A stretch of DNA of 64,000 bases from assembly GCF_003399445.1 (NCBI RefSeq), contig NZ_QUQO01000001.1:2043001-2107000 (forward strand), given 5' to 3'. The DNA is from Parvularcula marina. GTDB lineage: Bacteria; Pseudomonadota; Alphaproteobacteria; Caulobacterales; Parvularculaceae. Positions 35,134-58,300 of the stretch are shown here, piece by piece; the first letter of the stretch is position 1, and every line of letters starts with the position of its first letter. The notes under the pieces were generated by a model. The model was not told where the DNA came from. It worked only from the letters and a program-made list of their open reading frames with translations, and made no database searches. Both the position numbers and the translations under genes were made by a program.

Positions 35134-35239
35134 CTTTCTTGCGCTAAGATGAGGGTCATTAACCGGTGAAAACGGCGCGGACCAGCTTTCCTAGGCGCGC
35201 TTCAACGGTTAAGCTGTGGTTAATTGTGGGGGTAATACG

Positions 35240-37854: not shown

Positions 37855-38562
37855 TTATGCTGACTGGTCGGCAATCTCTTCGAGAGCATCGACACGGAAG
37901 AGGGTGATCAGCCCGCCGGAGCCGCCAAGCAGGCCGTCATCTTCCCAGACTTTGAGCTGGCGGTTCACATTCTCCCGCATCAGGCCGGCATGAGCGCCTA
38001 GATTGGCCTGGCTCAGCTTGATATCGACGAGGATGCCGCCTTCGGGTTGCGGCTTGCCATATTGCTCGGCGAGGCGGAGCAACGCGCGCGCAAGCCGTGG
38101 GCCTGCCTGCAATGTCGTCATCTCCTCAACGAACTCGTCCGTTTTGCGAAGGCGTCCGCAAAGGACGCCGATAATGTTGAGGGCGACTTTCGGGTGGGTC
38201 TCAAGATAGCTGATGAAACCTGTCCGGCCGATCACAAGGACACGGCTCTCTTCGATCGTGATGGCGCTCGCTGTTCGGAGGCCGCCGTCGAGGACGGCAA
38301 TCTCACCAAGGACTTCACCGGGGCCCATGAAGGCCAGCACGGTTTCCTTGCCGCCTTGCGAGGTCGTGCAGATTTTGATCCGGCCGGAGAGCACGACATA
38401 CATGTTCTCGGCATCTTCGCCCTGACGGCAGATCGCCTGCCGCCCCTTGAAGATCTTGATCTGGGAAATCGCGATCAGGTCATCGAGACCGTCATCGTCG
38501 ATACCGGCGAAGAACGCATGCTGCCGCAATTCAAAGCGGATGCTCGCCTGTTTATCGATCAT
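37855..38562 (-). CDS. CRP-family transcription regulator with cyclic-nucleotide pocket
   Basis: About 235 residues. The cNMP domain shows GEVLGEIAVLDGGLRTASA, with G86-E87 and R96-T97 at the positions that hold cAMP in E. coli CRP (GE and RS). The winged HTH reads SQANLGAHAGLMRENVNRQLK; its recognition helix RENVNR keeps the R-E-x-x-x-R pattern of CRP (RETVGR), predicting TGTGA half-sites. There is no N-terminal Cys cluster, so it is not FNR. ATG 38562 is used; ATG 38583 and TTG 38601 are alternatives. It sits beside a cyclase/phosphodiesterase locus. Confidence 0.88.
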   Translation of the reverse strand: MIDKQASIRFELRQHAFFAGIDDDGLDDLIAISQIKIFKGRQAICRQGEDAENMYVVLSGRIKICTTSQGGKETVLAFMGPGEVLGEIAVLDGGLRTASAITIEESRVLVIGRTGFISYLETHPKVALNIIGVLCGRLRKTDEFVEEMTTLQAGPRLARALLRLAEQYGKPQPEGGILVDIKLSQANLGAHAGLMRENVNRQLKVWEDDGLLGGSGGLITLFRVDALEEIADQSA

Positions 38563-38692
38563 GCCTCGTGCCCAAACCGCCATAGATCGGCGGCCCCTCA
38601 ACGGGGGTGGGAGCGCCCCCGCGGCTGCTAAATTCGCATAACTCTAAGCGATTATTCGGAAAAACGCACGTGTCACGAAACAGTTGAACTGC

Positions 38693-41153: not shown

Positions 41154-43538
41154 ATGGCGAAGCGTTCCAGATTGATGCGCATGGGATGGCGCAAACGCGC
41201 GCTTCCGGCTGCGGCCGGGCTCATCGTGCTCGTCCTGACAGCGGCTATCCATTATTATAATCCCCTTTCCCTGAACCGTTTTGGCGACCAGCTGATGGAC
41301 CAGTTCCAGCGTTGGGAACCCCGTGAGTATCAGGATGTTGGTGTCCGGGTTGTCGATATCGACGAGGACTCGATCGACCGCATCGGCCAGTGGCCTTGGC
41401 CGCGCACGCAGATCGCCGAGATGACCCAGCGCATGTTTGAGGCAGGCGCAGGCGGCGTGGCCTACGACATCGTCTTTTCTGAAGCGGATCGGACCTCGCC
41501 TGAAAATTTGCGCCCCACACTGATTAAAGGCGGCGCGACCGAAGAAGTGCTTGCGGGGCTCGAGCAATACCGCCCGCATGACGAAGTGTTCGGCGAAAAG
41601 CTCGGCGTGCTGAGTGAGCTCGGTGGCGCGGTCATCATGGGCTATTTCTTCGAGTATTTCGAGGGCCCGGACATGCAGCCGAAACGGCTTTATGGTCCAT
41701 CCAGTGCCGGGGAAGTGCCTGTCCAAGCTCTGCCCAGATATGTCAGTGTGACGGACTCAATTCCTGTTATTAATGACAATGCCTATGATGCGGGTTTCGT
41801 CAGCACGCCGAAAGACCCCGATGGCATCGTGCGCAAGGCAGCGCTGCTGGCCTATCTCGATACGGGCACGCCTGCGGATGACCCCTTCGCCATCCTCGAT
41901 GTCTATCCCTCGCTCTCGCTTGCGATGTATCGCTTCTTCCTTGAGGCGACGGCGGACACGACCGCGAAGGTCCGTGATGCCCGCGGCTACCGGATCGAGA
42001 CTTCGACGGGCTCAGGCGAGATCGGCGCCAATGTCTCACAGATTGCGGGTATTCGCTTTGGCGAGAAGCTGGTGCCGACAACAGCCAAGGGCGAGCTGCT
42101 AGTTCATTTCACCGAAGGGCGTGAGAACCGGGTCATCCCCGCATGGAAACTGCTCGACCCGGATGTTAGCATCGAGGAGCTTGAAAAAGACTTCCTTCTG
42201 AAAATGACGGATGCGGATGGCAATGAAAGCTACCGGCCGACCCTCGTTTATGTCGGCACCGGGGCGCAGGGGCTTTATGACCTTGTTGCAACGCCGCTCG
42301 AGCCGACCCTGCCTGGAGTGCTGGTTCATGCTCAGGCAACTGAGCAGATGCTGCTCGGTCACTTCCTGACAAAGCCGGACTGGGCGCCGGGTGTGCGTCT
42401 CCTCAGCCTGCTGCTGGGCGGTTTGATCCTGATCCTGATTGTCCCAATCGCCGGCCCGCTGCGCAGTGGTCTTGTCGCGGTCCTGATTATTGGCGGGCTC
42501 TTTTTTGTTTCCTGGGAGCTTTACGTCAATCAGCGGACCCTTTTCGACCCGGTCTATCCGGCCATCGCGCTGGGGCTCGTCTACCTGATAACGTCGACCA
42601 GTAGCTTCATCCTGACGGAGGCGGAGAAATCCCACATCAATGGGGCCTTCTCCCGATATCTCTCGCCGGATATGGTCGCGAAGATCGCTGACGATCCGGG
42701 CTCGCTGGAACTCGGCGGTGAGAACCGCGACATGACGATCCTGTTCTCGGATATTCGCGGCTTCTCGAAGATTTCCGAAGGCATGACCTCGGCCGAGCTG
42801 ACCAGTTTCCTGAACCGCTATCTGACGCCGATGACGCAGATTCTGATGAGCCACAAGGCGACCGTCGATAAGTATATCGGCGATGCGGTGATGGCATTCT
42901 GGAACGCGCCGCTGGATGACCCTGAGCATCATCGGAACGCAGCCCTTTCCGCGCTCGAGATGATGGATCGTCTTGCGGAAATGAATGCGGCCCGGAGTAA
43001 TCCGCAGGCGCCGGAAAGTGAAAAACTGCCGGTTGAGACAACAATCGGGATCGGTCTTTTCTCTGGCGACTGTTCGGTCGGCAATATGGGTTCGGACCAG
43101 CGGTTTGACTATTCCGTACTCGGCGATGTCGTGAACACGTCATCGCGTCTTGAGGGTATGACCAAGCAATATGGCGTCGGCATCCTTGTGGGGGATTCGA
43201 CGGCAGAACATCTTGGTGAGTTTGCCCTGATTGAACTCGACCGGGCGAAAGCCGTCGGCAAGGATAGCTGGCTGACGATTTTCGCTCTCGTCGGGGATGA
43301 GCAGGTGGCGAATGATCCCGCATTCGCCAAGCTGCTCGAGCTTCAGTCAAAGTTCCTTGCGACCTATCGCGAGCAGAACTTTGAGGAAGCTTTAACCATG
43401 ATCGGGGAACTCTCCCGATTGGGCGCAGGTTTTGGGCTCGGGAAACATTACACAATCATGCAGGAGCGGATTGAGGCATATCTGGTGGATCCGCCGCCAC
43501 AGGACTGGGAAGGCGTCTATGTGTTGCGGCAAAAATAA
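41154..43538 (+). CDS. CHASE2-domain class III adenylate cyclase
   Basis: 794 residues: TM1 (about 20-38), extracytoplasmic CHASE2 sensor (about 45-390; RVVDIDEDSIDRIGQWPWPR), three TM segments (about 418-490) and a class III cyclase domain (about 525-710). Metal Asp occur in ILFSDIRGF and YIGDAVMAFW. The purine Lys lies in VDKYIGD, and the motif FDYSVLGDVVNTSSRLE carries the adenine-selecting Asp and the transition-state Asn/Arg. These features predict cAMP synthesis in response to a periplasmic or membrane signal. Confidence 0.92.
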   Translation: MAKRSRLMRMGWRKRALPAAAGLIVLVLTAAIHYYNPLSLNRFGDQLMDQFQRWEPREYQDVGVRVVDIDEDSIDRIGQWPWPRTQIAEMTQRMFEAGAGGVAYDIVFSEADRTSPENLRPTLIKGGATEEVLAGLEQYRPHDEVFGEKLGVLSELGGAVIMGYFFEYFEGPDMQPKRLYGPSSAGEVPVQALPRYVSVTDSIPVINDNAYDAGFVSTPKDPDGIVRKAALLAYLDTGTPADDPFAILDVYPSLSLAMYRFFLEATADTTAKVRDARGYRIETSTGSGEIGANVSQIAGIRFGEKLVPTTAKGELLVHFTEGRENRVIPAWKLLDPDVSIEELEKDFLLKMTDADGNESYRPTLVYVGTGAQGLYDLVATPLEPTLPGVLVHAQATEQMLLGHFLTKPDWAPGVRLLSLLLGGLILILIVPIAGPLRSGLVAVLIIGGLFFVSWELYVNQRTLFDPVYPAIALGLVYLITSTSSFILTEAEKSHINGAFSRYLSPDMVAKIADDPGSLELGGENRDMTILFSDIRGFSKISEGMTSAELTSFLNRYLTPMTQILMSHKATVDKYIGDAVMAFWNAPLDDPEHHRNAALSALEMMDRLAEMNAARSNPQAPESEKLPVETTIGIGLFSGDCSVGNMGSDQRFDYSVLGDVVNTSSRLEGMTKQYGVGILVGDSTAEHLGEFALIELDRAKAVGKDSWLTIFALVGDEQVANDPAFAKLLELQSKFLATYREQNFEEALTMIGELSRLGAGFGLGKHYTIMQERIEAYLVDPPPQDWEGVYVLRQK

Positions 43539-43574: not shown

Positions 43575-44429
43575 ATGCTGATCGCTCAGATCACGGATCT
43601 GCATATTGGCACCGGCAACGATATCGGGGCCGAGGACAATTACCATCGCCTGCTCGCGGTGTTTGAGACCCTGTCCAAACTCAAGCGCAAGCCGGATGTC
43701 TATATTGCGACAGGGGATCTGACCGAAATCGGATCGGTTGCGGCCTATAAACTCCTCAAGCAGATGATTGATGAGGTAAATCCCGGCGTGCCGGTGCTGC
43801 CATGCCTCGGCAATCACGATGTCACCGAGAACTTCAAAAAGGTCTTCGGCAAGACGCATATCCATGAGGGCTTCTGTCAGTATTCGGTCGATCTCGGCGA
43901 TGTCTGGCTGGTTGTCACCGATACGCATGACGAAACCATTCATGGCGGCGCCTTTGATGAGGCGCGGGCGGACTTTCTTGATCGCGCAATTGAGGAGGCC
44001 AATGGCCGCCCGGTGCTGCTAGCCATGCACCATCCGCCCTTTGTCACCGGCATCGACTGGATGGGGGCGCGCAATTACGAAGAGCCATGGCTGGTTCAGG
44101 TGCGCGACGTCATCAAGCGCCACAGTAATGTGAAGAAGATCATCTGCGGGCATATTCACCGGACGATGGACCGGCCCTTCGCGGGCAGCTCCTGCATCGT
44201 TTCGTCCGCAACGGCTGCGCAGGTTCATTTGGAACTCGCGGCGATCACCTCATCGACGGCGGATGGCCGTCCGCTGATCGTTGATGAGCCGCCGGGCTTT
44301 GCGCTTCACTGGTGGGATGGCCGTGAATTCGTGACCCATCACGGGGTCGCTGGCGATTTTGATGTCATCCTCGAATATCATGACCGGTTCCGGAACGTGA
44401 TGCGGGATGTGTTCCACGTGCCTGAATAG
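43575..44429 (+). CDS. class III cyclic nucleotide phosphodiesterase (CpdA-like)
   Basis: 284 residues of the calcineurin-like metallophosphoesterase fold. All ligands are visible: D8-x-H10, GD 47-48, GNHD 79-82, H152 in MHHPPF and GHIH 192-195. With the DxH start and close spacing it groups with CpdA/Icc enzymes that hydrolyse 3',5'-cAMP. Its place directly behind an adenylate cyclase (36 bases) supports that role. GGAGGAG precedes the ATG. Exact specificity is inferred. Confidence 0.85.
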   Translation: MLIAQITDLHIGTGNDIGAEDNYHRLLAVFETLSKLKRKPDVYIATGDLTEIGSVAAYKLLKQMIDEVNPGVPVLPCLGNHDVTENFKKVFGKTHIHEGFCQYSVDLGDVWLVVTDTHDETIHGGAFDEARADFLDRAIEEANGRPVLLAMHHPPFVTGIDWMGARNYEEPWLVQVRDVIKRHSNVKKIICGHIHRTMDRPFAGSSCIVSSATAAQVHLELAAITSSTADGRPLIVDEPPGFALHWWDGREFVTHHGVAGDFDVILEYHDRFRNVMRDVFHVPE

Positions 44430-44552: not shown

Positions 44553-46997
44553 GTGTCGGATAATTTTAAAGTCGCGATCATCGGCTCGGGCCCTGCGGGG
44601 CTCAGCGCGGCGGCACGCGCGGCGGCGCTCGGCATGTCCCATGTCCTGCTTGAGAAGACCGACCACCTCTCCGACACCATCTACAAATACCAGAAGGGCA
44701 AGCACATCATGGCGACGCCGGACCAGCTGGTCCTGCGCTCCGACATGTCCTTTGCTGCCGGGAAACGCGAAGACATCCTTGGCACCTGGGATAGTCAGGC
44801 GCTGTCCCAGAAGGTGAATGTCCGGCTCGACGCGGAAGTCCTCGATATTTCGGGCTCGAAGGGCAATTTCAAGATCCAGCTCAAGGGCGGCGATGAGATC
44901 AGTGCAGAGAACATCGTTCTCGGCATCGGCACGCAAGGCAACCCGAACAAGCTGCGCTGCCCCGGCGGCGACCAGCCCTTTGTCGGCTATCAGCTCGATG
45001 ACCCTGCCGAGCATCTCGACAAGCATATCATCGTCGTTGGTGGCGGGGATGCCGGGATCGAAAACGCGCTCGGGCTTGCCAATCCGGATCTCGGCAACAC
45101 CGTCACGCTGCTTCAGCGCTCGGACGGTTTTCCGCGGTCAAAGCCGGCCAACGTCGCGCTGCTCGAAGAGGCGCGGGCCGATGGACGCCTCGACTTCCTG
45201 ATCAGCGCGTCGCCCAAGGAACTTCTAGCCGACCGCATGATCGTCGAAGCGAAAGATGGCGAGATCGAGCTGCCCTGCGACATGGTCATTGCGCGTCTTG
45301 GCTCTGCGCCGCCGCGCAAACTGATCGAGGGATGGGGGATCGAGTTTACCGGCCCCGACCGTGAGGCCTATCCGATCCTGTCGGAAGAATTCGAAAGCGT
45401 TGTGCCGGGTATCTTCGTCATCGGCGCACTGGCGGGTTACCCGCTCATCAAGCACTGCATGAACCAGGGCTATGATGTCATTGAACGGATCAATGGCAAC
45501 AAATCTCTCAAGCCCGCCGACCAGCCGCTGCTAGAAGCGATCTTCAAGAAGGTCCCCGGCGGCAAGAGTGTCGATTACTGGATCGACCACCTGCGCAAAG
45601 ACGTGCCTATCTTCGAAGGCGTCAGCCGCCTTCAAATGCGCGAATTCCTGCTCGATTCCAGAATGCATGCGCCGAAGGCGGATGAAATCATCTTTCGCCG
45701 CAATCAGGCGGGCTCATCCCTCTGGGCGGTTGTCGATGGCTCGGTGCAGGTTGAGATCAATCCCAATGATACGCGCCAACGGGTTGAGCTGGGGGCGGGG
45801 CAGATCTTTGGTGAGATTGGCCTCATCTCCGGCCGGCCACGTTCGGCGACCATCCGTGCAGGACGCAATGCGATCCTGATTGAAGTGCCTCGCTCAGCAG
45901 CGCTCAAGCTGATCGACACCATCCCGGCGGTGAAACGCAAAGTCGACACCATCGCTACTGAACGCCAGATCCGCCAGATCTTCGGCAACGGCCTCGATGT
46001 GAAATGGATCGAGAAGCTCATTGCGAATGCGGAATATGTCGACGCCCCGGCGGGGATGACGATCATCGAGGAGGGCTCGGACGACCTCGACGTCTATATC
46101 ATCCGCTATGGCTCGGCGCTGGTGGAGAAGAATATCGGCGGCAAGGACGTCTTCCTCTCTTATGTGCCGGCGGGCGCCTATGTCGGGGAGATGGCGCTGT
46201 TCGAAAACCGTGTACGGACGGCCTCGGTCAAGACGGCGATCAAATCCCAGCTGATCCGCCTGTCGGGCGAGATCTTCGAGGAACTCTTATCGGCTGAGCC
46301 CGAACTGCGCGAACGCATCCGCGAAACCGTGGTCGAACGCCGCCGCCTCAATGCTTTCGTTGAAAGCAAGAAAGACAATTTCGATTCGGTCTCGGACTAT
46401 TACTCTCAGGTTGCGGACTTCCTCATCTCCGAAGGTCTTGGCGAGGCGACCGACGCGCTCCTGATCGATGAAAGTCTTTGCGTCGCGTGCGACAACTGCG
46501 AGCTGGCTTGCGCGGAAACCCATCAGGGCATCTCGCGTCTCGATCGTGAGGCGGGCCAGGCTTATGAGAGCATCCACGTGCCGACCTCATGCCGGCATTG
46601 CGAGCACCCGCACTGCATGACGGACTGCCCGCCCGACGCCATTCACCGCGGCGCGGATGGCGAGGTCTTTATCGACGAAACCTGTATCGGCTGCGGCAAT
46701 TGCCAGCGTTATTGTCCGTATGGGGTTATTCAGATGCAGAAGATCCCGCCGAAACGGCCGGGGCTTTTTGCCTGGTTCCTCTTTGGCTCCGGGCCGGGGC
46801 CGGGCCAGCCGAGCCAGAAATGGATCAATCAGAAAACCAAGGGCAAGGATGTCGGCAAATTCGCGGTCAAATGCGACATGTGCAAGGGCATCAAGGGCGG
46901 CCCGGCCTGCGTGCGCGCCTGCCCGACGGGCGCGGCCATCCGCGTCAGCCCTGAGAATTATCTGAACACGGTCAATAAGAATGGCGGGGGGCAATAA
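44553..46997 (+). CDS. flavoprotein-(cNMP-binding)2-polyferredoxin fusion
   Basis: 814 residues, GTG start. Residues 1-330: thioredoxin-reductase-like FAD/NAD(P)H fold (IIGSGPAGLSAA at 9-20, VVGGGDAGIENA at 161-172), but without the CxxC active site. 350-455 and 485-585: two cyclic-nucleotide-binding domains, each with intact phosphate pocket (G420-E421 with R430-S431; G545-E546 with R555-T556). 640-790: sixteen cysteines in four 4Fe-4S motifs (C643/646/649/653, C680/683/688/692, C711/714/717/721, C774/777/786/790). It looks like an NAD(P)H dehydrogenase allosterically gated by cAMP. First gene of a five-gene operon. Confidence 0.9.
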   Translation: MSDNFKVAIIGSGPAGLSAAARAAALGMSHVLLEKTDHLSDTIYKYQKGKHIMATPDQLVLRSDMSFAAGKREDILGTWDSQALSQKVNVRLDAEVLDISGSKGNFKIQLKGGDEISAENIVLGIGTQGNPNKLRCPGGDQPFVGYQLDDPAEHLDKHIIVVGGGDAGIENALGLANPDLGNTVTLLQRSDGFPRSKPANVALLEEARADGRLDFLISASPKELLADRMIVEAKDGEIELPCDMVIARLGSAPPRKLIEGWGIEFTGPDREAYPILSEEFESVVPGIFVIGALAGYPLIKHCMNQGYDVIERINGNKSLKPADQPLLEAIFKKVPGGKSVDYWIDHLRKDVPIFEGVSRLQMREFLLDSRMHAPKADEIIFRRNQAGSSLWAVVDGSVQVEINPNDTRQRVELGAGQIFGEIGLISGRPRSATIRAGRNAILIEVPRSAALKLIDTIPAVKRKVDTIATERQIRQIFGNGLDVKWIEKLIANAEYVDAPAGMTIIEEGSDDLDVYIIRYGSALVEKNIGGKDVFLSYVPAGAYVGEMALFENRVRTASVKTAIKSQLIRLSGEIFEELLSAEPELRERIRETVVERRRLNAFVESKKDNFDSVSDYYSQVADFLISEGLGEATDALLIDESLCVACDNCELACAETHQGISRLDREAGQAYESIHVPTSCRHCEHPHCMTDCPPDAIHRGADGEVFIDETCIGCGNCQRYCPYGVIQMQKIPPKRPGLFAWFLFGSGPGPGQPSQKWINQKTKGKDVGKFAVKCDMCKGIKGGPACVRACPTGAAIRVSPENYLNTVNKNGGGQ

Positions 46998-47869
46998 TGG
47001 CTTTTGATTCCGCCAACCAGAAACGGCGCCAGCAGGCCGCCCATATCAGCTTCCTCAAACACGCCAATTTCAAATGGGCGAAGTTCGCACTGGTGATCTC
47101 GGTACTCGCTGCGGCCGGCTATTTCCTCCACGATCCGCTGCCGCGCCCGAATGGCGGCACCATTCTAGGCTATACGCTGGGGACAATCGGCGCGCTCCTG
47201 ATCCTGTGGCTGACCATGCTCGGCATCCGCAAGCGGAGGATCGCGCCGGGCAACTGGAGCCTTAAAGGCTGGACCTCGGCCCATGTCTATCTGGGGCTTT
47301 CACTGATTGTCATCGGGACGCTCCATACCGGCTTCCAGTTCGGCTGGAACATTCACACCCTTGCCTATGGCGCGATGATCGTCGTCATTCTCTCCGGGCT
47401 CGTCGGTATCTGGTTCTATGCGGTCATTCCCGAAAAGATGGGCCGTAACCGGGATGAGCTGACACGCGAGCAGATGGTGGCGGAGATCAATGCCTTTGAC
47501 CGTCAGCTGACCCAACAGGCCCAACCGCTGCCGCCGGCGATCTCTGATCTCGTCAAACAGTCCGTGCAAAAAACGAAAGTTGCGGGCGGCGTTCTTTCGC
47601 GTCTTGCCAAGCGCGCGCCGACGGATGCGACCGATAAGGCGCTCGAGAAACTGCGCCGCATGCATCCGAACATTGATGGCCCGGACCGTCAGGTCGTTGA
47701 CCAGCTGATCGCGACGCTCGAGCGCAAGCAGACAGCGCTAGGCCGTGCCCGCCGCCATGTGCGCTACAAGACCATGCTCGAGCTGTGGCTCTATGTGCAC
47801 GTCCCGATAACCTTCCTGCTTCTGGCAGCGCTGACGGCGCATATCGTCAGCGTGTTCTTCTACTGGTGA
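46997..47869 (+). CDS. di-heme cytochrome b-type membrane protein
   Basis: 290 residues with four to five membrane helices. Histidines H96 and H110 (AHVYLGLSLIVIGTLH) and H268 and H282 (VHVPITFLLLAALTAH) are each 14 residues apart on two helices, the classic arrangement for two stacked b hemes. A soluble helical loop (about 150-255) lies between. ATG overlaps the preceding stop (TAATG). It likely takes electrons from the polyferredoxin and passes them across or into the membrane. Confidence 0.82.
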   Translation: MAFDSANQKRRQQAAHISFLKHANFKWAKFALVISVLAAAGYFLHDPLPRPNGGTILGYTLGTIGALLILWLTMLGIRKRRIAPGNWSLKGWTSAHVYLGLSLIVIGTLHTGFQFGWNIHTLAYGAMIVVILSGLVGIWFYAVIPEKMGRNRDELTREQMVAEINAFDRQLTQQAQPLPPAISDLVKQSVQKTKVAGGVLSRLAKRAPTDATDKALEKLRRMHPNIDGPDRQVVDQLIATLERKQTALGRARRHVRYKTMLELWLYVHVPITFLLLAALTAHIVSVFFYW

Positions 47870-47879
47870 GGGCGCAGAC

Positions 47880-49760
47880 ATGACGTTCATCATCAGACAG
47901 ATCACCAGACGGCCATCAGGCGATGACATCATCCGCGACCGCGAACTGCCGGGCGACGAAGTCACCGTCGGCCGCGCGACGCATAACGAGATTTTCCTCT
48001 CCGACCTGCGGGTTGGCCTCGATCACCTGACGATCTTCCTCTCAGGCACGCGCCTCTCGGTCGAAGCAGAGAAGGGGCACCCCTTCACGATTGACGGGCG
48101 TGAGCAGTCCAAGCTGACGCTCAGCCAGGGCAACACGAAGGCCATCATGGTTGGCCCGTTCCAGCTCAGCTTTGAAGCGGCAGAACGCGGTGTCTGGCGC
48201 ATCTCGGTTGAGCGGGTGGAGCCGGAAGCTGCCCTGGAAGAAGATCAGGTCGATGAGATTTTCACCCTGCGCGGCACCCTGCTTGGCAAGCGCTTGCCCT
48301 CATGGGCCGGATATCTTGGCGCGATCTTCCTGTTCCTTGCCGTGCCTGTCGCGTGGTTCTACGGCATTATTCCGAATGCGGCGGATGAGGTTGTGGACCT
48401 TGACCGCTCATGGCTCTCGGGGCCCCTTTCGAGCGACCACGCCAATCTTGCGGGTGAATGTCAGGCTTGCCACCAGGCAGCCTTTGATCACGTCAATGAT
48501 TATGCCTGCATCGAATGCCATGACGAGCTGGGCGATCACGCCGAGCCCGTCCTTTTGACTCAAGCCGTGCCTGATCCTTCGGGTGTCGACGGGCTCATCA
48601 CGCAAGCCTCGATGTTCTTTGGCAAGGAGCGCGGGCAATGCGCCGACTGTCACCGCGAGCATAATGATGATGAGGGGCTGATCCTTGAGGCTTCCGTTCT
48701 GTGTGCGGATTGCCACACCGGGCTTCATGACCGGATCGAGACGGATCTTGAAGATGCCAGCAGTTTCCGGACGAGCCATCCGAACTTTCAGGCCGTGCTG
48801 ATCGACACACCCGGCGCAACGCTCGGGGATGAGCCGACCTTCCGCCGCGTGCCGCTCGGCAGTGCGGATGTCATGGACAATACGGGCCTCAAATTCCCGC
48901 ATGACCTCCACCTTGAAACGTCCGGCGGGGTTGCGCGTCAGGCGCAGACGCTGTCGGCAGAATACGGCTTCGGTGATGCGCTGGTCTGTGAGGACTGCCA
49001 TTCGCTCGACAAGGACGGGCTCCTCTTTGAGCAGATCGAGATGGAGGCGAATTGCCAGATGTGCCACGCGCTCGACCTGCCCGATGAGCAGTACACGCGC
49101 GAGCTGCCGCACGGCAAACCGACCGAAGTCATCGCCCTCATCCGCGATTATTACCGCAACCGGACGATTTCAGACCTCGTGATGCCTGATGGCTCCTTGC
49201 GCCGCCGGCCGGGCGATGACCGCCGGGTGCGCCGCCAGCCGCGCCCCGAGACCGCCCGCGTCGATGCCATGGCGATTGCCGAGGAACAGGTCGCTCAGAT
49301 CTTTGCGGAGAAAGGCGCCTGCGGCACCTGCCATGTCGTCAAACAGCCGCCCGCCGGGACGGTCGATTTCGACATCCAGCCGGTGCGCTTGATCGACAAA
49401 TTCATGATCCATGCTGAATTCGATCATGATGCTCATGATATCGGCGATCTGACCTGTGACAGTTGTCACGAGGCGAAATTCTCCTCTCTCTCAACCGACG
49501 TGCTCCTGCCGCAAATCGAGACCCAAGCCGGGCTCCCCGGTGGCGGCGATGTCGAGGGCTGCCGCGAATGCCATGGCGATGAGAAATCGCGTGCGCCGCT
49601 GACGGCCTCGGCCTGCCTTGACTGCCATGGCTATCATGACGGCACCCATGCGCCGATCATGCGCCCGCGTGTGGTGGTCGATGCCAGCGGATCAGGTGGC
49701 GAGCTCAGCTTCAACCCGTCGCGGTGGGGACGCATTCCCGAGGGCGCGACGATCCGCTAA
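47880..49760 (+). CDS. FHA-domain / decaheme cytochrome c fusion
   Basis: 626 residues. N-terminal about 1-110 is FHA-like (VTVGRATHNEIFLSDLRV, then HLTIFLSG), so cytoplasmic. One TM helix follows (about 142-162). The periplasmic part holds ten CxxCH heme motifs (CQACH, CIECH, two CADCH, CEDCH, CQMCH, CGTCH, CDSCH, CRECH, CLDCH). A phosphothreonine-type recognition domain and a multiheme electron conduit in one chain is rare. It is 10 bases behind the cytochrome b gene and 9 before ccmF, so it is the likely client of those maturation genes. Confidence 0.88.
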   Translation: MTFIIRQITRRPSGDDIIRDRELPGDEVTVGRATHNEIFLSDLRVGLDHLTIFLSGTRLSVEAEKGHPFTIDGREQSKLTLSQGNTKAIMVGPFQLSFEAAERGVWRISVERVEPEAALEEDQVDEIFTLRGTLLGKRLPSWAGYLGAIFLFLAVPVAWFYGIIPNAADEVVDLDRSWLSGPLSSDHANLAGECQACHQAAFDHVNDYACIECHDELGDHAEPVLLTQAVPDPSGVDGLITQASMFFGKERGQCADCHREHNDDEGLILEASVLCADCHTGLHDRIETDLEDASSFRTSHPNFQAVLIDTPGATLGDEPTFRRVPLGSADVMDNTGLKFPHDLHLETSGGVARQAQTLSAEYGFGDALVCEDCHSLDKDGLLFEQIEMEANCQMCHALDLPDEQYTRELPHGKPTEVIALIRDYYRNRTISDLVMPDGSLRRRPGDDRRVRRQPRPETARVDAMAIAEEQVAQIFAEKGACGTCHVVKQPPAGTVDFDIQPVRLIDKFMIHAEFDHDAHDIGDLTCDSCHEAKFSSLSTDVLLPQIETQAGLPGGGDVEGCRECHGDEKSRAPLTASACLDCHGYHDGTHAPIMRPRVVVDASGSGGELSFNPSRWGRIPEGATIR

Positions 49761-49769
49761 GGCGGCCCA

Positions 49770-51776
49770 ATGATCATCGAACTTGGCCATTTCGCCCTTA
49801 TTCTCGCTCTCCTCGTCGCCGGGGTGCAGACACTCTCCGGCATTGTCGGTGGACATCGCGCCGACCGGACCCTGATGGGGGTCAGCGGCTTTGCGGCTTA
49901 TGCGCAGGTCACGCTGGTCATCCTCGCTTTCCTTGCGCTGATGCATGCCTATCTGACATCAGATTTCAGTGTGCGGAACGTCTTTGAGAACTCCCATTCG
50001 ATGAAACCGATCATCTACAAGATCGCGGGCGTCTGGGGGAATCACGAGGGCTCACTGATACTCTGGATTCTGATCCTTGCTGCGCTCGGCGCGGCGGTGG
50101 CGGCGTTCGGTCGGCGGATCCCTGAGACATTGCGAGCGCGCGTGCTTGGCGTGCAGGGGCTGATCGGCGTCTGCTTTCTCGCCTTCGCGCTTTTCACTTC
50201 GAACGCTTTCCTGCGGATGGATCCGGTGCCGCTGGACGGCACAGATCTAAACCCGCTCCTTCAGGATGCTGGCCTCGCCTACCATCCGCCCTTTCTTTAC
50301 CTCGGCTATGTCGGTTTTTCGGTCGCCTTTTCTTTTGCGGTGGCGGCCCTGCTGGAGGGCCGGGTGGACCCCGCCTGGGCAAGGTGGGTTCGTCCGTGGA
50401 CGCTGCTTGCCTGGGCAGCGCTGACCCTCGGCATCGCGATGGGCTCATGGTGGGCCTATTACGAGCTTGGCTGGGGCGGCTACTGGTTCTGGGATCCGGT
50501 CGAGAACGCCTCTCTCATGCCGTGGCTGGCGGGCACGGCGCTTCTCCATTCGGCGATCGTTGTCGAGAAACGCGACACCTTGAAGCTCTGGACCGTCCTG
50601 ATGGCGATCATCGCCTTTACGACCTCGCTCCTCGGCACTTTTGTAGTGCGTTCAGGGGTGCTGACCTCCGTACACGCCTTTGCCAATGACCCCTCGCGCG
50701 GTGCGCTATTGCTGGCGATCACCATTCTCCTGTCAGGCGGAGCCTTTACGCTCTTTGCCCTGCGGGGGTCCGCCATGCGGTCTTCGGGCAGCTTTGCCAG
50801 CGTCTCCCGCGAAAGCGCGCTGGTCCTCAACAATGTCATCCTCTGCGTGATCACCTTCACCGTGGTGCTGGGGACGTTCTGGCCGCTTTTCCGTGAGGTC
50901 GTGACGGGCGAACGCATTACGGTGGGCCCGCCCTATTACACGATTGTGACGACCCCGCTCATGATTCTCCTCGCCATCATCATGGCCGCGGGCATCTTCC
51001 TGCCGTGGAAGCGGGGAGACGCGAAGAAAGCTGCTGGTCGCTTAAAGGCGGCGGGTGTTGGCACCGTTGTGGCTGTCATTGCCGGGCTCTACTTCTCCGG
51101 CATCCACAATATACTCGCCGTTGTCGGACTGGCGATCGGCGTCTTCATCATCCTGATCACGTTCACGGATGTTGCAGACCGAGCGAAGCTCTTCCGTATT
51201 CCGTTTAAAACGTCGCTCGCGCGAATGCTTGGCTTTCCGCGCGCCTTCTGGGGCGGCTCAATGGCGCATCTGGGGGTCGGGTTTGCGATCCTCGGCATGG
51301 TCGGCACCTCGCTCTGGGTGACTGAAAAGCAAGTCGTCATGACGCCGGGCGAGACAGCCGAAATCGCCGGTCTGGACATCACCTTTGAGGATATCGGCGT
51401 CTACCGGATCGCCAATTATGAAAGCGAAATGGCCACTTTCACCCTGTCGAAGAACGGCCGGAAGATTGCGACCATGATGCCGGAGAAGCGCTGGTATCCA
51501 GTCGCTCAGCAAACAACAGTCGAGGCCGATATCCTCCCCCGTTGGGCGCATGACATCTATGTCGCCATCGGTGACCAGCGCGGCGAGGATCCGCGTAGCC
51601 GCGTCGTCAGGCTCTATCATCACCCGCTGGTCATGTGGCTTTGGGGTGGCGGAGTGTTGATGGTCTTTGGCGGGCTCGTCAGCCTATCCGACCGTCGCTA
51701 CCGAATCGGCGCACCGACCCGGAAGAAAGCGGCCCCGGCAGCGCCCGCCGGGCCAGAGACGGTGCCAGCAGAATGA
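49770..51776 (+). CDS. ccmF: cytochrome c heme lyase subunit CcmF
   Basis: 668-residue polytopic protein with the WWD heme-handling motif GGYWFWDPVENASLMPWL and conserved histidines in the flanking loops (for example YHPPFLYLGYVGF and HNILAVVG). CcmF and CcmH attach heme to CxxCH apocytochromes. Being in the same operon as a decaheme cytochrome is unusual and suggests dedicated or co-regulated maturation. It overlaps ccmH by 4 bases (ATGA). Confidence 0.96.
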   Translation: MIIELGHFALILALLVAGVQTLSGIVGGHRADRTLMGVSGFAAYAQVTLVILAFLALMHAYLTSDFSVRNVFENSHSMKPIIYKIAGVWGNHEGSLILWILILAALGAAVAAFGRRIPETLRARVLGVQGLIGVCFLAFALFTSNAFLRMDPVPLDGTDLNPLLQDAGLAYHPPFLYLGYVGFSVAFSFAVAALLEGRVDPAWARWVRPWTLLAWAALTLGIAMGSWWAYYELGWGGYWFWDPVENASLMPWLAGTALLHSAIVVEKRDTLKLWTVLMAIIAFTTSLLGTFVVRSGVLTSVHAFANDPSRGALLLAITILLSGGAFTLFALRGSAMRSSGSFASVSRESALVLNNVILCVITFTVVLGTFWPLFREVVTGERITVGPPYYTIVTTPLMILLAIIMAAGIFLPWKRGDAKKAAGRLKAAGVGTVVAVIAGLYFSGIHNILAVVGLAIGVFIILITFTDVADRAKLFRIPFKTSLARMLGFPRAFWGGSMAHLGVGFAILGMVGTSLWVTEKQVVMTPGETAEIAGLDITFEDIGVYRIANYESEMATFTLSKNGRKIATMMPEKRWYPVAQQTTVEADILPRWAHDIYVAIGDQRGEDPRSRVVRLYHHPLVMWLWGGGVLMVFGGLVSLSDRRYRIGAPTRKKAAPAAPAGPETVPAE

Positions 51777-52231
51777 GAAATCTGATTTTCCTCGTCGTCA
51801 TCGCCCTTGCGGGGCTCTCCTCCAGCCTCGCGCAGGAGGGAGAGGCAAGCGACGCCTCGATCGATGCTCGCGAGCTCGAAATTGCCGAGACGATTCGCTG
51901 TGTTGTCTGTAAAAACCAGTCGATTGCCCAGTCAGATGCCGAGCTTGCCCGCGACCTGCGGGCGATCCTTCGTGAGCGGCTTGAGGCGGGGGATACGGAT
52001 GTCGAAGCCCGGGACTATATCGTTGAGCGCTATGGCGAATTCGTGCTCCTCAAACCGACCTTTTCGGGGAAGAATTTCCTCCTCTGGGCAGGGCCGTTTA
52101 TGGTGCTTATTCTCGCGATCTTTGGCGGGATCGTCTTCATTGTCACGCGGCGCAATATTCCCGCTGGTAACCCTTCCTTAACCCCTGAAGAACGCAGCGA
52201 ACTCGACGCTTTCCTGAAGCAGAAAGAATAG
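51773..52231 (+). CDS. ccmH: cytochrome c maturation protein CcmH
   Basis: 152 residues: signal/anchor (MRNLIFLVVIALAGLSSSLA), the thiol-redox motif RCVVCKNQSIAQSDAELARDLR, and a C-terminal TM (about 98-122). It reduces or holds the apocytochrome cysteines for CcmF. Start by ATGA overlap with ccmF. CcmG and CcmE are not adjacent. Confidence 0.95.
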   Translation: MRNLIFLVVIALAGLSSSLAQEGEASDASIDARELEIAETIRCVVCKNQSIAQSDAELARDLRAILRERLEAGDTDVEARDYIVERYGEFVLLKPTFSGKNFLLWAGPFMVLILAIFGGIVFIVTRRNIPAGNPSLTPEERSELDAFLKQKE

Positions 52232-52370
52232 GCCCCAGCGGCCCTTTTTCACGCACCGCACAGTTGAATTTTAGCTTTCGATTAAGCTAGACGAGAGGGG
52301 CGAGGGGAGAGAGCGCGTGCCGTGGGGGCTGCGCTCATTTTCGCATCCCCTATACGGTTGCGAGGGCACC

Positions 52371-55300
52371 ATGACCAATGATCGCGAGTTCGGCGAGCGC
52401 GGCACCACTCTTTTCTCGATGCTTGCTGGACAAGAGGATGTGATCAAGAACGGATCGCTCTCAGGGCCTGGCGGTGCGGGATTTGTGGGCACCGGCCCGA
52501 TTATCCCCTCAACAGGATCCGGCACCGTTTCGGTGGCGTCGATCGTGCCGCCCAGCCCTGTGTTCTCGAACGCGTCGGTTCCCGCCGGCGCCGTTGTTCA
52601 GGCCGAGGATGATGCTTTCACGTTGGGCGAGGATGACACGCTCGCCGGCAACGTTCTTGACGATAATGGCAGCGGGACTGACGCCGCCCCTCAGGGGACG
52701 GAAGTTTTCGTGACCGAGGTCAACGGTCTTGCCTTCAACGGCACGGCCGTAATCGAGACCGCTTTTGGCGGCATCATCAATATCGACAATGACGGCAATA
52801 TCTTCGTTGATCCGTCGGGCGGCTATGATTTCCTCGCCGCGGGTGAGGCGATCCAGGAGACCTTCACCTATACGCTCTCCGGCGCGAACACGATGATCGA
52901 TCCGGGCGAGTTCGAAGCCGTCGTCAATGTTAATAATCTCGACTCAGAGACCGGCTGGGTCATTCTTGGGGCGAGCCCTGACGATTTCTTCGGGATTTCC
53001 GTCGCCGGTGCCGGTGACGTCAACCAGGACGGCTTTGCTGATCTCATTATTGGCGGCTATCGCGGCGGCAGTAATTTCGAGGGTCGCGCCTATATCGTTT
53101 TTGGCGGGACTCAGGGCAATGGCCCCCTGACTGTCGCGGATGGCAGCTTTGGCCTCAACGGCCAGTCGGGCTTCGCCTTTGCCGGGATTCAAGGCGTCCA
53201 GCTGATGGGTCAGGCTGTCGGCGGCGGCGGCGATTACAATGGCGACGGCATTTCTGATTTTCTGGTTGCCTCGCCGCGTTTTGATACGTCGGGCACGAAC
53301 AATGCGGGCTCCGTCGATGTGATTTTCGGTGGGCAAGGCATCAACAATGTCGCCACTTCCGGTTTCTCCATTTTCGGAACCGGGCCGAACACTTATGCTG
53401 GCATCACGACCGCGAATGCCGGTGACCTCAATAATGATGGCATTGATGATGTTGTCGTTGGTGCATGGCCGGCTGATCCGGGTGGTCGGCTTGAGGCGGG
53501 CGAAGTTTATGTTGTCTTTGGCAGCCAGAGCCAGCAGGGCAATGTAACCGTCAGTGGACTGACGGGGTCGAATGGCTTTGTTATTCAGGGTGTCTCGGCG
53601 GGTGACCGCGCGGGCACGGCGCTTGCTTCCGCAGGTGACTTCAACGGCGACGGTATTGAAGACCTCATCATCGGCGCGACCCACCGGGATGTCGGCGCGA
53701 TTGAAAATGCAGGCTCCGCCTATGTCGTCTTCGGCTCCAGTAGCGGTTTTGGCGGCACGCTGAACCTCGCCAATGCTGGCTTCCGCCTCGATGGCATCGA
53801 GGAGAATGACTATCTAGGGCGCTCGGTTTCCTCCGCAGGCGACATTAATGGCGACGGGATCGGCGATATCGCCGTCGGCGCCTTTAACGCAGCGCAAGGC
53901 GCGGCGGCGCACGCCGGTGCAGTTTATGTCGTCTTTGGCGGGCAGGGGATTTCCGGTACGCTCTCTGCAGGCGCTCTCAACGGCACCAATGGTTTTACCA
54001 TTCGCGGTTTTGAAACCGATGCACAGGCTGGTGTGTCTGTGTCGCTTGCCGGCGATGTCAATGCGGACGGTTTTGATGACCTGTTGATCGGCGCCCACCT
54101 TGAAGGCGCAAATGATCAGGGTGCAGCCTATGTTGTCTTCGGCAGCGCAAATGGCTTTGGCAGTTCGATCAACCTCAACGGCCTTGACGGCACGAACGGC
54201 TTTAAAATTTCCGGTGCGCCGGGCGAGGGATATCTTGGCTGGGCGGTTGCCGGCGTCGGTGACGTTAATGGCGACCAGGTCGATGATATCGCGGTTTCTG
54301 CATTCGGGCTTAATGATGACACGGGCGCGGTCTTCGTTATTTACGGGCGCGGTACGCCGGTCGATGGCGAGAGCACAGCGACCGTTACGGTCACCTTCCA
54401 GGGCGAGAACGATCCGGTCGTTGCCAATGATGACAGCTTCACCGTCACCGAAGATGGTGGTCGTGTGGATCTCGAAGAATCCTTCCTGACGAATGATGTT
54501 GATCCGGATACGTCCGACACGCTGACTGTCGTGTCAGTGAACGGCCAGACCATTGTTGGTACTGACATCACTCTCACAACTGAGGGGGGCGGTACCCTAA
54601 CTGTCTTCCTCGATGGGACTTATGACTACACACCTTCCTCATCAGCTCAGTCTCTGACGGGCGGTGAATCGATCACGGATTTCTTCACCTACACAGTAAC
54701 TGACGGCACAGTTACGAGCGGTCAGGCGACGGTTTCGCTGGTCGTGACAGGTATCGATGATGCGCCATCAGCAAATGATGAGACCTTCACGACGGATGAA
54801 GATCTGGCGGTCATCGACTCCTTCTCTGGTGCTGGGAACCTCCTCGATAATGACTTCGATCCCGAAGGCGAGGATCTCATCATTACGGCGGTCGAAGGCT
54901 CGGCGGCCAATGTCGGTAGCACGATCACTCTGGCATCCGGCGGCACCCTGAATATTCAGAGTGACGGCTCGATCCTCTACTTCCCGCCGAGCGGCGTGGA
55001 CTCGCTGGCTGCGGGTGAGCAGTTTGTGGATACGGCAACCTATACCGTCAGTGATGGGACGCTCGAATCAACGGCGACGGTCACGCTGGTCACGACAGGC
55101 GTCAATGACCCGGTCAGCGCGACGAATGACAGTTTCGCCCTTTTCGAGAATGACCCGGGCCTCTCGGGCACGGCAAATGTTCTTGATAATGACTTTGATG
55201 TCGATGCTTCGGATACAATTACCGTAGCTGAGTTTGACGGCGATCCGATCCCCGTCGGCGGCAGTGTGACGATGACGTCCGGTTTCGGTTCGCAGGTGAC

Positions 55301-58300
55301 GCTTTTTGCCGATGGCACATTCCAGTATGTGCCGGGCAGCGGCTTTGACTCGCTCATGCCGGGCGAAACTCAAGACGACACCTTTACCTACCTCATCACG
55401 GACGGCGATACGACCAGCACGGCCTCGATCACGGTCACCGTGTCGGGTGAGGACGACGCGCCTGTTACGCTTACGGACAATTTCGTCCTCTTTGAGGATG
55501 ACGGTAGTCTTTTCGCATTCTCATCAGGGTCGGCGAATGTACTGGATAATGATTCTGACCCGGAAGGCGGCAGCCTGACGGTGACGGAGCTGAACGGTAA
55601 TCCGACATTCAGCGGTATGGCGGGAGCCACTTCCGCGGATGGCGCGGACATCTTCATCACTTCCTCCGGTGTCGTCGATTATTTTATCCCGGCGAGCTAC
55701 CAGAGCCTTGATGACGGCGAATCGATGATGGACAGCTTCACCTATACGGTGAGCGACGGGAACACCTCTGTCGTCGAAACGGTCAACATCATCGTCAACG
55801 GCTCGAACGATGCGCCGATCGCAGCGGATGATACGGCAACGGCCTTTGCGATGTATCCGGGCCCGTCGATCACAGCGCTTGCGAATGGCCAGTTCAGCTT
55901 CGTTCAGTCAGGTTTCTCGGGCGGCGGCGCCGTATACGGTGTTTTCGAAGCCGAAGACCTGAATGGCGATGGCGCCATTGATCTCTCTGAGGTCACAGCT
56001 TTCGAAGCCGCGTTTACCGGCGGTGATATGGTCGGCGCCTTCAACCTTGATTTGAGCGGCCTGCAATATCTCGTCTTTGATCTCGATGGTACACTGGGCG
56101 ATGGCACCAGCGGCGCTGCCGGGGCGGAAGGCATCATCTGGATTGGGGCTACTGAGCAGTATATTTCGGGGACGTCTTTCCTCAGCGCGAGCATGCCGGG
56201 CCTCGTTGATGACGGTCAGGAGTCGGATCAATCAACCGAATTCGCGACGGCTGACTCTGCTAAAAATGTCCTCGATAATGACACGGATGTTGACACCAGC
56301 GATACGCTGACGGTTTCCGAAGTCGAAGGGGTGGCTGGAAATGTCGGCACCCAGATTACGCTTAGCTCTGGCGCCCTTCTGACGATGAATGCAGACGGGA
56401 CATATTCCTATGACCCCAATGGCGCTTTCGACTCACTGCCCCAGGGACAGACGGCCACGGAAACCATCACCTACACGGTGACAGATGGTGATGTGACGGA
56501 TACGGCGCAGCTGACGATCACGATCGAAGGTACGCTTGACGGCGTTGTCGCGAATGATGATTTCTTCACGGCGGCTGGCGGCGCCTCGACCTTCAGCGCT
56601 GATGTCAATGACGACGATGTACCGATGGATACGCCGGTCAGCGGTGTGAACGGTCAGGATGTCGGCACAGGTACCACGATCACGTTGACCTCAGGTGCAA
56701 CACTGACGATCAATCCGGACGGGACGTTCAATTATCAGTCGCCGGGCTATTTCTCGAATGCGGGCCTTGATGTCACGATTTATGACAGCTTCAGCTATCG
56801 TCTTGATGACGGCACGGTCAGTAATGGCGACCAGCCTAAAGAGCCGGTGACCGCACAGACATCGGCCAATCCTGATGGCGATCCTTTCCTGTTTGCCAAT
56901 GAAGCATACGCCTATTTCGGGGCCAGTGTTGCCGGTATCGGCGACATCAATGGTGACGGGATAGACGACATTGCAATCACTGCACCGCGTTCGTCGAATG
57001 GCAGCTATTTCAATGCAGGTAAGGTCTATGTCGTCTTCGGGCGGACGGATGAGAACAATGCACTCGACCTCGATGCGCTGGACGGCACGGACGGGTTCGT
57101 TCTGACTGGCGAAACCTCAATCGGTATTATTGGCGCATCGATCAGTAAGCTCGGTGACGTCAATGGTGATGGGATTGACGACTTCGGGGTTGGCAGCGGC
57201 GTCTATGGTGATGGGATCTACGGCAACAAGGTCGCTTATGTGATCTATGGCCGGGATACGACGCAAGGCGACAGCTTCAGCGCGACTGAACTTGTCGAGA
57301 ACCTTGACAGCACCACGACCGGTTTTGCGATCTACAATGAAAATTCGTATGCTGGCTTCGGGACGGTTGTTTCGGGGGCTGGCGATGTCAATGGTGACGG
57401 CTTTGCCGATATTTTGATCAGCTCGCCAGGCGACGATGGTCAGGGCTCGGGCGGTTCCTACGGGGGTCAGGGCCGCGCCTATGTCGTTCTGGGTACAGAT
57501 CAGGCCCGCGCTTCGTTCGGGTCGGTTCAGGATGAGATTTCCGCAAATCAGGCATTCTCGGTCTACGGATATAGCAATTCTACCAATTATGGCTTCAGCC
57601 GCACGGCCAGTGGTGCGGGCGATATCAACGGTGATGGGTTCGACGATATCATCATCGGCGCGAGCTATAGCTCTAGCGTTGGGGCAATTACTTACGTCAT
57701 CTTCGGTTCGAATTCGCTTGCAGGAACGGATGTTGACGCAACAGCTGTCGACGGGACCAATGGCTTCCTGATCGATGCGACGGGCGTGTCCACGGGACTT
57801 GGGCGGTCGGTCGCGACCGCCGGGGACTTCAATGGCGACGGCATTGCTGATGTGATGGTATCGGATTCCGGCTTTTCCAATGGTCTTGGCTACAATTCCG
57901 GCGCGACCTTCATCATCTTCGGCAAGGATTCAACGCAGGGCGATAACTTCGCTGCGACAGTTACCCCGCAGAGCCTCGACGGGACCGACGGGCTCAAAAT
58001 CTTCGGAGCGACAGACGATTACGGCTTTGGCTTCAATATCTTCAGCCTCGGCGATGTGAATGGCGACGGGTTCGACGATATCTCGATCGGCACCGGCTAC
58101 AGCCAGGCTGGCGGTCGTGCCTATGTGATTTTCGGCACGGATAACGGCTTTGGCGGCGAGCTCCATGCCTTCAATATTAATGGCCATAACGGCACGATTT
58201 TCGAAACGCCGGAGGGCGCCCCGAAATTCGTGGTCGCCGGAGATATTAACGGAGACGGCTTTGTCGACGGCATCATCGGTAACCAAACTGGCCAGGGCGT

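Follow-up and report, generated by a model that had tools for sequence, protein, structure and literature searches.

A candidate inner-membrane half of a cyclic-nucleotide-responsive electron export chain in Parvularcula marina and related bacteria

Can a second messenger act directly on the enzyme through which electrons enter a membrane chain? The question is raised by a locus of Parvularcula marina (Alphaproteobacteria; Parvularculaceae) in which a flavoprotein with two cyclic-nucleotide-binding (CNB) domains is encoded in a row with cytochrome genes, just downstream of a nucleotide cyclase and a phosphodiesterase. The stretch analysed, here termed the window, comprises 64,000 nucleotides (contig NZ_QUQO01000001.1, positions 2,043,001 to 2,107,000, forward strand). 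An earlier note on this DNA had described five tightly spaced genes as a putative single operon that would pass electrons from NAD(P)H through Fe-S clusters and b hemes to a periplasmic multiheme cytochrome c, and that would be switched by direct binding of cyclic AMP (cAMP). The proposal made here, with a probability of about 0.5, is that the first three genes supply the inner-membrane half of a porin-cytochrome-type chain which exports electrons across the envelope and whose flow would be set by a cyclic nucleotide.

The three-gene core and its cofactor ligands

All five open reading frames lie on the forward strand between positions 44553 and 52231, with spacings of -1, 10, 9 and -4 bases, and coordinates, spacings, Pfam families and motifs all agree with the earlier description. 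Between positions 40000 and 55000 there are 9 terminator-like sites (shuffle mean 12.9) and 6 promoter-like sites (4.7); neither count is clearly above shuffled sequence and there is thus no argument there for splitting the operon. The cyclase and phosphodiesterase genes are separated by 36 bases and the latter lies 123 bases from the flavoprotein gene, all on the same strand.

The first product, of 814 residues, is proposed to be a cyclic-nucleotide-responsive NAD(P)H dehydrogenase. Pfam finds in it a Pyr_redox domain, two cNMP_binding stretches (PF00027, 100.4 bits against a cut-off of 27.5) and Fer4 domains including Fer4_11 (pfam13247, 36.1 bits against 26.2), with the CNB domains following the flavin part and preceding the Fe-S part. 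Four groups of four cysteines (residues 643-653, 680-692, 711-721 and 774-790) make up the Fe-S motifs, and all 16 are invariant in 18 diverse homologues. The flavin part is devoid of CxxC, its only cysteines being residues 136, 242 and 302. The structural model has a mean predicted local distance difference test score (pLDDT) of 72 and is good over most of the flavin and CNB parts; the Fe-S part is mostly below 50 and was left uninterpreted. The best fold match is the bacillithiol disulfide reductase YpdA/Bdr (TM-score 0.82 over the target). This likeness is one of fold in the flavin part, and membership of the family was rejected, as the family score is 120.3 bits against a cut-off of 339.9 and Ala15 stands where YpdA has a conserved cysteine, which we take to be its active-site residue.

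The second product carries the motifs W92-H96-H110, W264-H268-H282 and S133-G134..G137, and a hydropathy scan gives four transmembrane (TM) helices. Across 96 distinct homologues (103 aligned) the histidines 96/110 and 268/282 and the glycines are always kept, W264 is present in 96, W92 in 95 and S133 in 89 (threonine in 7). The third product, the FHA-cytochrome, has a TM helix at residues 146-164 and ten CxxCH motifs, a number shared by 79 of 80 distinct homologues, the remaining one (L071, near a contig end) having nine. Ten further histidines are kept in 79 or 80 of the 80, as expected for ten bis-histidine hemes. In the FHA-like domain Arg32 is kept in 80/80 and His49 in 77/80 and the usual serine position is variable, while its Pfam match (Yop-YscD_cpl, 28.1 bits) is below the cut-off of 33.2.

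Domains and cofactor ligands therefore support the path of the earlier note, and the succession NAD(P)H, FAD, Fe-S clusters, b hemes and periplasmic multiheme cytochrome c is its best reading. A hydride from NAD(P)H would be transferred onto the FAD of the cytoplasmic flavoprotein and passed on as single electrons to four [4Fe-4S] clusters, whereupon the two b hemes would carry the electrons over the inner membrane to the FHA-anchored periplasmic decaheme cytochrome.

Conservation, a partner cluster and exchangeable outer ends

The flavoprotein was followed through the best 80 of 578 confirmed loci on public contigs, beyond which there are more, a sample biased to close relatives. Neighbours were counted at a match of at least 60 bits within about 10 kb, with the loci whose contig reaches far enough as denominators; 53 of the 80 have long flanks on both sides. 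By title the loci belong to Parvularculaceae, Sphingomonadales, Caulobacterales, genera such as Robiginitomaculum, and unplaced alpha-proteobacteria or bacteria; carriers are related to Sphingomonas, Novosphingobium and Erythrobacter and some are named strains, among them Novosphingobium mathurense (L061) and Marinicaulis flavus (L038). The cytochrome b accompanies the flavoprotein in 76/76 of these best loci and the FHA-cytochrome in 67/67, a conservation that makes chance untenable. A phosphodiesterase lies near the module in 55/64, a barrel protein in 41/58 and a decaheme cytochrome with LVIVD repeats (decaheme-LVIVD) in 40/58. The co-occurrence expected from the earlier note hence holds throughout for the two cytochromes and largely for the phosphodiesterase (48 of the 53 long-flank loci), and is weak for an adjacent cyclase (8 of 53).

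In a set of 398 genomes of the phylum the flavoprotein occurs in 15, five of them outside the class. Two of these five (G572 and G764; loci L161 and L162) also have relatives of the HbpS-like and barrel proteins described below, G764 with the decaheme-LVIVD cytochrome in view. In G466 and G571 the flavoprotein and cytochrome b are fused in one frame of about 1120 residues (L160:9849-13205 and L163:3052-6423), and the FHA-cytochromes of these loci have nine CxxCH motifs. G441 has two flavoprotein copies, one (L158) with cytochrome b and FHA-cytochrome and one (L159) without.

Clustering of the genes flanking the public loci, together with reading of the open reading frames of eight loci, revealed a partner cluster. 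Its products are a decaheme-LVIVD cytochrome of about 1340 residues, a C554-type tetraheme cytochrome, a protein without a Pfam family that is about 600 residues long, and an HbpS-like protein. The window genome itself holds a four-gene cluster of tetraheme cytochrome, HbpS-like lipoprotein, barrel and decaheme-LVIVD cytochrome at L131:5530-14846 (G000:C1:341530-350846), 1.7 Mb from the window operon. The electron path of the earlier note thus stands as far as the parts of the operon go, but the operon does not stand as a whole system: it would be an inner-membrane half with its partner elsewhere in the genome. The four partner proteins would then relay electrons to or through the outer membrane. 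In G007, of the same genus, a single contig carries both halves in divergent orientation and, after them, phosphodiesterase and cyclase genes, in an assembly rated 6% contaminated and split into 700 contigs; in G010, G031 and G034 both halves stand in one row with a glutamate dehydrogenase gene. The decaheme-LVIVD cytochrome has ten CxxCH motifs in all 49 complete proteins (48 distinct). All 24 tetraheme sequences (22 distinct) have four CxxCH motifs and a conserved CX4CH (C45-C50-H51, at 95% or more), and given this additional motif the protein may carry five hemes.

The two halves also go together across genomes. Among 61 relatives a full-length flavoprotein is found in 14 and the decaheme-LVIVD cytochrome in 13, all within the 14 (0/47 negatives); the sole flavoprotein-positive relative without the decaheme is G025, an assembly of 89% completeness in 460 contigs. 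Among 385 genomes of the class the flavoprotein is found in 36 and the decaheme in 29, again all within the 36 (0/349 negatives). Fisher's test gives 2e-12 for the relatives and 2e-37 for the class, both uncorrected for kinship. Three genera (g1, g2 and g7) each include species with both proteins and species with neither, a pattern which argues against purely inherited co-occurrence.

Six of the seven decaheme-less class genomes, all except G085, were opened. At L140, L141 and L144 the core stays and a pentaheme cytochrome and a protein of about 535 residues stand in place of outer genes; the latter protein is presumed to be a barrel, and has no Pfam match in the two loci scanned (L140 and L141). 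L139 and L143 have only a tetraheme cytochrome besides the triad, and L142 has the flavoprotein alone. When 27 flavoproteins are placed on a tree, the carriers of the pentaheme occupy two separate positions, and L140 adjoins the decaheme carrier L148 with a support of 0.999. It is tentatively suggested that there is a class of trans-envelope export chains in Parvularculaceae, Sphingomonadales and other proteobacteria in which a cyclic nucleotide, bound directly to PKA-like tandem CNB domains of the entry enzyme, acts as a valve, and which have exchangeable outer-membrane ends.

The cyclic-nucleotide link and rival readings

The tandem CNB domains align to PKA RI-alpha across both domains with both cassettes in register. 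Like the PKA regulatory subunit the flavoprotein has two serial CNB domains, but here they are fused to oxidoreductase parts. The cassette residues G420-E421...R430 and G545-E546...R555 are invariant, down to 43% identity, in three overlapping alignment sets of 45, 18 and 27 sequences, in the last of which the glutamate and arginine of both cassettes are kept in 27/27, so that the intact pockets described earlier are borne out. Invariant columns make up 8/14 of the first cassette versus 18/131 elsewhere in its domain, and 6/18 of the second versus 9/125. The residue after the cassette arginine is variable in the set of 27 and for this reason does not distinguish cAMP from cGMP. Switching by direct binding of cAMP is what we infer from these pockets, although the ligand may be cGMP.

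The neighbouring cyclase would synthesise the messenger and the phosphodiesterase beside it would degrade it, and occupancy of the two CNB domains by the messenger would set the electron flow. By reading of its alignment to adenylate cyclases including CyaB, the window cyclase appears to retain the catalytic residues of class III enzymes, namely the metal-binding aspartate and the substrate-binding lysine together with the asparagine and arginine. The window phosphodiesterase resembles Rv0805. Class III cyclase genes are present in 14/14 flavoprotein-positive versus 14/47 negative relatives (E of 1e-5 or below) and in 14/14 versus 6/47 at 1e-15; in the class genomes the figures are 36/36 versus 212/349, to which genome size could contribute. 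The window phosphodiesterase was compared with 19 chosen relatives (11 of the 14 positive and 8 of the 47 negative) and is matched in 5/11 positive versus 0/8 negative genomes; 6/11 of the positive ones have a cyclase no more than 25 kb from the flavoprotein. To our knowledge cAMP control of electron export has been described only via transcription, for instance by CRP in Shewanella. If the reading is correct, the dehydrogenase itself would carry the sensor, amounting to second-messenger gating of an electron chain and to an allosteric valve on a respiration-like current, and relatives of Sphingomonas, Novosphingobium and Erythrobacter would possess a regulated electron export chain.

It is less probable that the CNB domains are structural or bind another ligand and that the nearby cyclase and phosphodiesterase work for CRP or for some other target. 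Genes for CRP-type, FecR and TPR proteins lie in the same neighbourhood, an adjacent cyclase is confined to 8 of the 53 long-flank loci, and the phosphodiesterase scores higher with the model of SpdA (a named 2',3'-cyclic nucleotide enzyme) than with that of 3',5'-cAMP phosphodiesterases, both scores being below cut-off. Against this stand the unbroken conservation of the cassette glutamates and arginines and the frequent presence of a phosphodiesterase near the module. An alternative of similar standing concerns the outer end: the decaheme-LVIVD cytochrome could be a surface reductase with a substrate of its own (e.g. iron for uptake) and not a wire to minerals or electrodes. This would agree with the HbpS-like lipoprotein in the cluster, with the LVIVD repeats that follow the ten hemes, and with the model of a barrel homologue (from L069, mean pLDDT 62), which has 18 strands and AlgE as its best fold match. 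Against it, the decaheme has no catalytic family in Pfam. Sheaths of the MtrB type are larger than 18 strands, which makes it doubtful that a cytochrome is threaded through this barrel, and the model speaks against a simple MtrAB-like sheath.

The chain could also run inwards: a donor outside the cell, for instance Fe(II) or Mn(II), would be oxidised on the surface, and its electrons would reach the quinone pool or NAD(P)+ by way of the cytochromes and then cytochrome b. This is unlikely, even though He et al. (2017, PMC5566968) drew their model of the putative porin-cytochrome cluster PCC4 with such a direction of flow, an external donor feeding the quinone pool. One carrier of the module (L042) is a Parvularculaceae genome titled Biocath_Alpha_06, a name that hints at a biocathode origin and would suit an inward chain, but a chain whose cytoplasmic member is a flavoprotein carrying four [4Fe-4S] motifs accords with NAD(P)H as the donor. 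The reduction of NAD(P)+ from Fe(II) is moreover uphill without a pump. Export is also favoured for most of the porin-cytochrome cluster (PCC) genomes treated in PMC13264449, on the ground that few of them fix carbon. Finally, that ccmF and ccmH belong to the system as dedicated heme ligation, as the earlier note had it, is rejected as very improbable: the genes, which score as CcmF and CcmH in Pfam, do come right after the triad, with spacings of 9 and -4 bases, and they lie directly downstream of it in L052 as well, a divergent ccmF adjoins the triad in L062, L092, L103, L104, L106 and L107, and a TPR gene that we label CcmI-like is near the module in 47 of the 53 long-flank loci, but ccmF is near it in just 3 of these (ccmH in 4) and, since the genome, whose completeness is rated at 99.54%, has a single PF16327 match, it must also serve the other c-type cytochromes.

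Several observations weigh against the proposed cyclic-nucleotide-set export chain. A cyclase is seldom adjacent and the window phosphodiesterase is matched in fewer than half of the positive genomes checked. Kinship is uncorrected in every co-occurrence test, as is genome size in the cyclase test on the class, and 7/36 flavoprotein-positive class genomes are without the decaheme. The flavoproteins at L142:9677-12067 and L159:10484-12961 have neither cytochrome b nor FHA-cytochrome in the 20 kb read, and at L148 the order is changed, the flavoprotein adjoining the decaheme and barrel with the FHA-cytochrome at the far end and no cytochrome b before the stretch ends. The barrel model is of modest confidence and has just those 18 strands. 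The best matches to CRP/FNR sites upstream of the cyclase, CRP, flavoprotein and tetraheme genes are at shuffle level, and no assay of such a protein appears in the literature searched, as judged by titles and the starts of abstracts.

Known relatives and neighbouring genes

The earlier note knew of no named system with this combination of parts. Its kind is already in print as a prediction, both as PCC4 and as a PCC group with a large decaheme. PCC4 comprises an inner-membrane protein with five TM helices, two WX3HX13H motifs and SGXXG, periplasmic cytochromes with 4, 5 and 10 hemes, and an outer-membrane porin, and in its subgroup II a pfam13247 Fe-S protein is encoded upstream of the inner-membrane gene (PMC5566968). 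The present system shares the two WX3HX13H motifs and SGXXG in its cytochrome b, the decaheme and tetraheme cytochromes, a putative outer barrel and the position of the pfam13247 part. The full set of 4, 5 and 10 hemes is found in L140, L141 and L144, whereas the window genome has the 10-heme protein in the window, the 4-heme protein in the partner cluster and no pentaheme in either locus, but instead the decaheme-LVIVD cytochrome and the HbpS-like lipoprotein. It differs further in that FAD, CNB and Fe-S parts form one protein. The first PCC group of PMC13264449 (2026) pairs a large decaheme gene (4-5 kbp) with that of a roughly 20-stranded porin, and in 7/11 a ferredoxin-NADP reductase is encoded close by; as far as its description goes, gene size, heme count, barrel size and neighbouring reductase are alike.

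What stands of the claim to novelty is the cyclic-nucleotide link, which looks new: the words 'cyclic', 'cAMP' and 'FHA' are absent from the main text of PMC5566968, whose redox-gene domains are also treated in its supplement, 'cyclic' and 'FHA' are absent from that of PMC13264449, and the available passages of PMC10654088 do not treat the system. Added here are an entry enzyme with CNB domains, an anchor of the FHA type, an association with phosphodiesterase and cyclase, the separation of the system into two loci in the window genome and the exchange of outer modules. The gene set is real and conserved, and would serve a putative electron transfer of the porin-cytochrome type with a likely second-messenger valve.

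With MtrCAB and PioAB the system shares the logic of a decaheme and a putative outer-membrane barrel, and there is a weak, below-cut-off match to MtrC/MtrF domains; it differs in the AlgE-like barrel model and in the FHA-cytochrome, which scores 25 bits with the DmsE family against a cut-off of 192.2. A conduit of the MtrAB type was rejected on these two counts, with the FHA-cytochrome as the decaheme compared against NCBIfam.

Table 1. Genes of the window and of the outer cluster (L131); window positions unless a locus is named
Feature	Position	Strand	Basis
Flavoprotein-(CNB)2-four [4Fe-4S] motifs, 814 aa	44553..46997	+	Pfam, motifs, alignments
Diheme cytochrome b, 290 aa, with motifs of the PCC3/PCC4 inner-membrane protein	46997..47869	+	motifs, homologue alignment
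N-terminal FHA-like domain, one TM helix, decaheme cytochrome c, 626 aa	47880..49760	+	motifs, TM scan
CcmF, sole copy found in the genome, housekeeping System I	49770..51776	+	Pfam
CcmH, 152 aa from ATG at 51773	51773..52231	+	Pfam
CHASE2-class III adenylate cyclase	41154..43538	+	Pfam, alignment to adenylate cyclases
Rv0805/CpdA/SpdA-like calcineurin-type cyclic nucleotide phosphodiesterase	43575..44429	+	Pfam, family scores, alignment
CRP-type regulator that may also read the cyclic-nucleotide signal	37855..38601	-	Pfam
C554-type tetraheme cytochrome	L131:5530-6906		motifs
HbpS-like protein, outer cluster	L131:6912-8969		lipobox by eye

L029, L038 and L042 likewise have relatives of the CRP, cyclase and TPR genes upstream of the module. 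Rfam gave nothing at gathering score in the window. A glutamate dehydrogenase gene at positions 35216-36820, about 8 kb upstream of the module, encodes a possible source of NAD(P)H for it; such a gene is near the module in 18/53 long-flank loci, occurs at L038, L042, L133, L135 and L136 among others, and stands within the module row in some Parvularculaceae. Downstream of ccmH, at positions 52317-59249, lies the gene for a repeat protein of 2310 residues, FG-GAP/VCBS-like by eye, for which there is one weak match (L078) among the best 80 of the 578 public loci.

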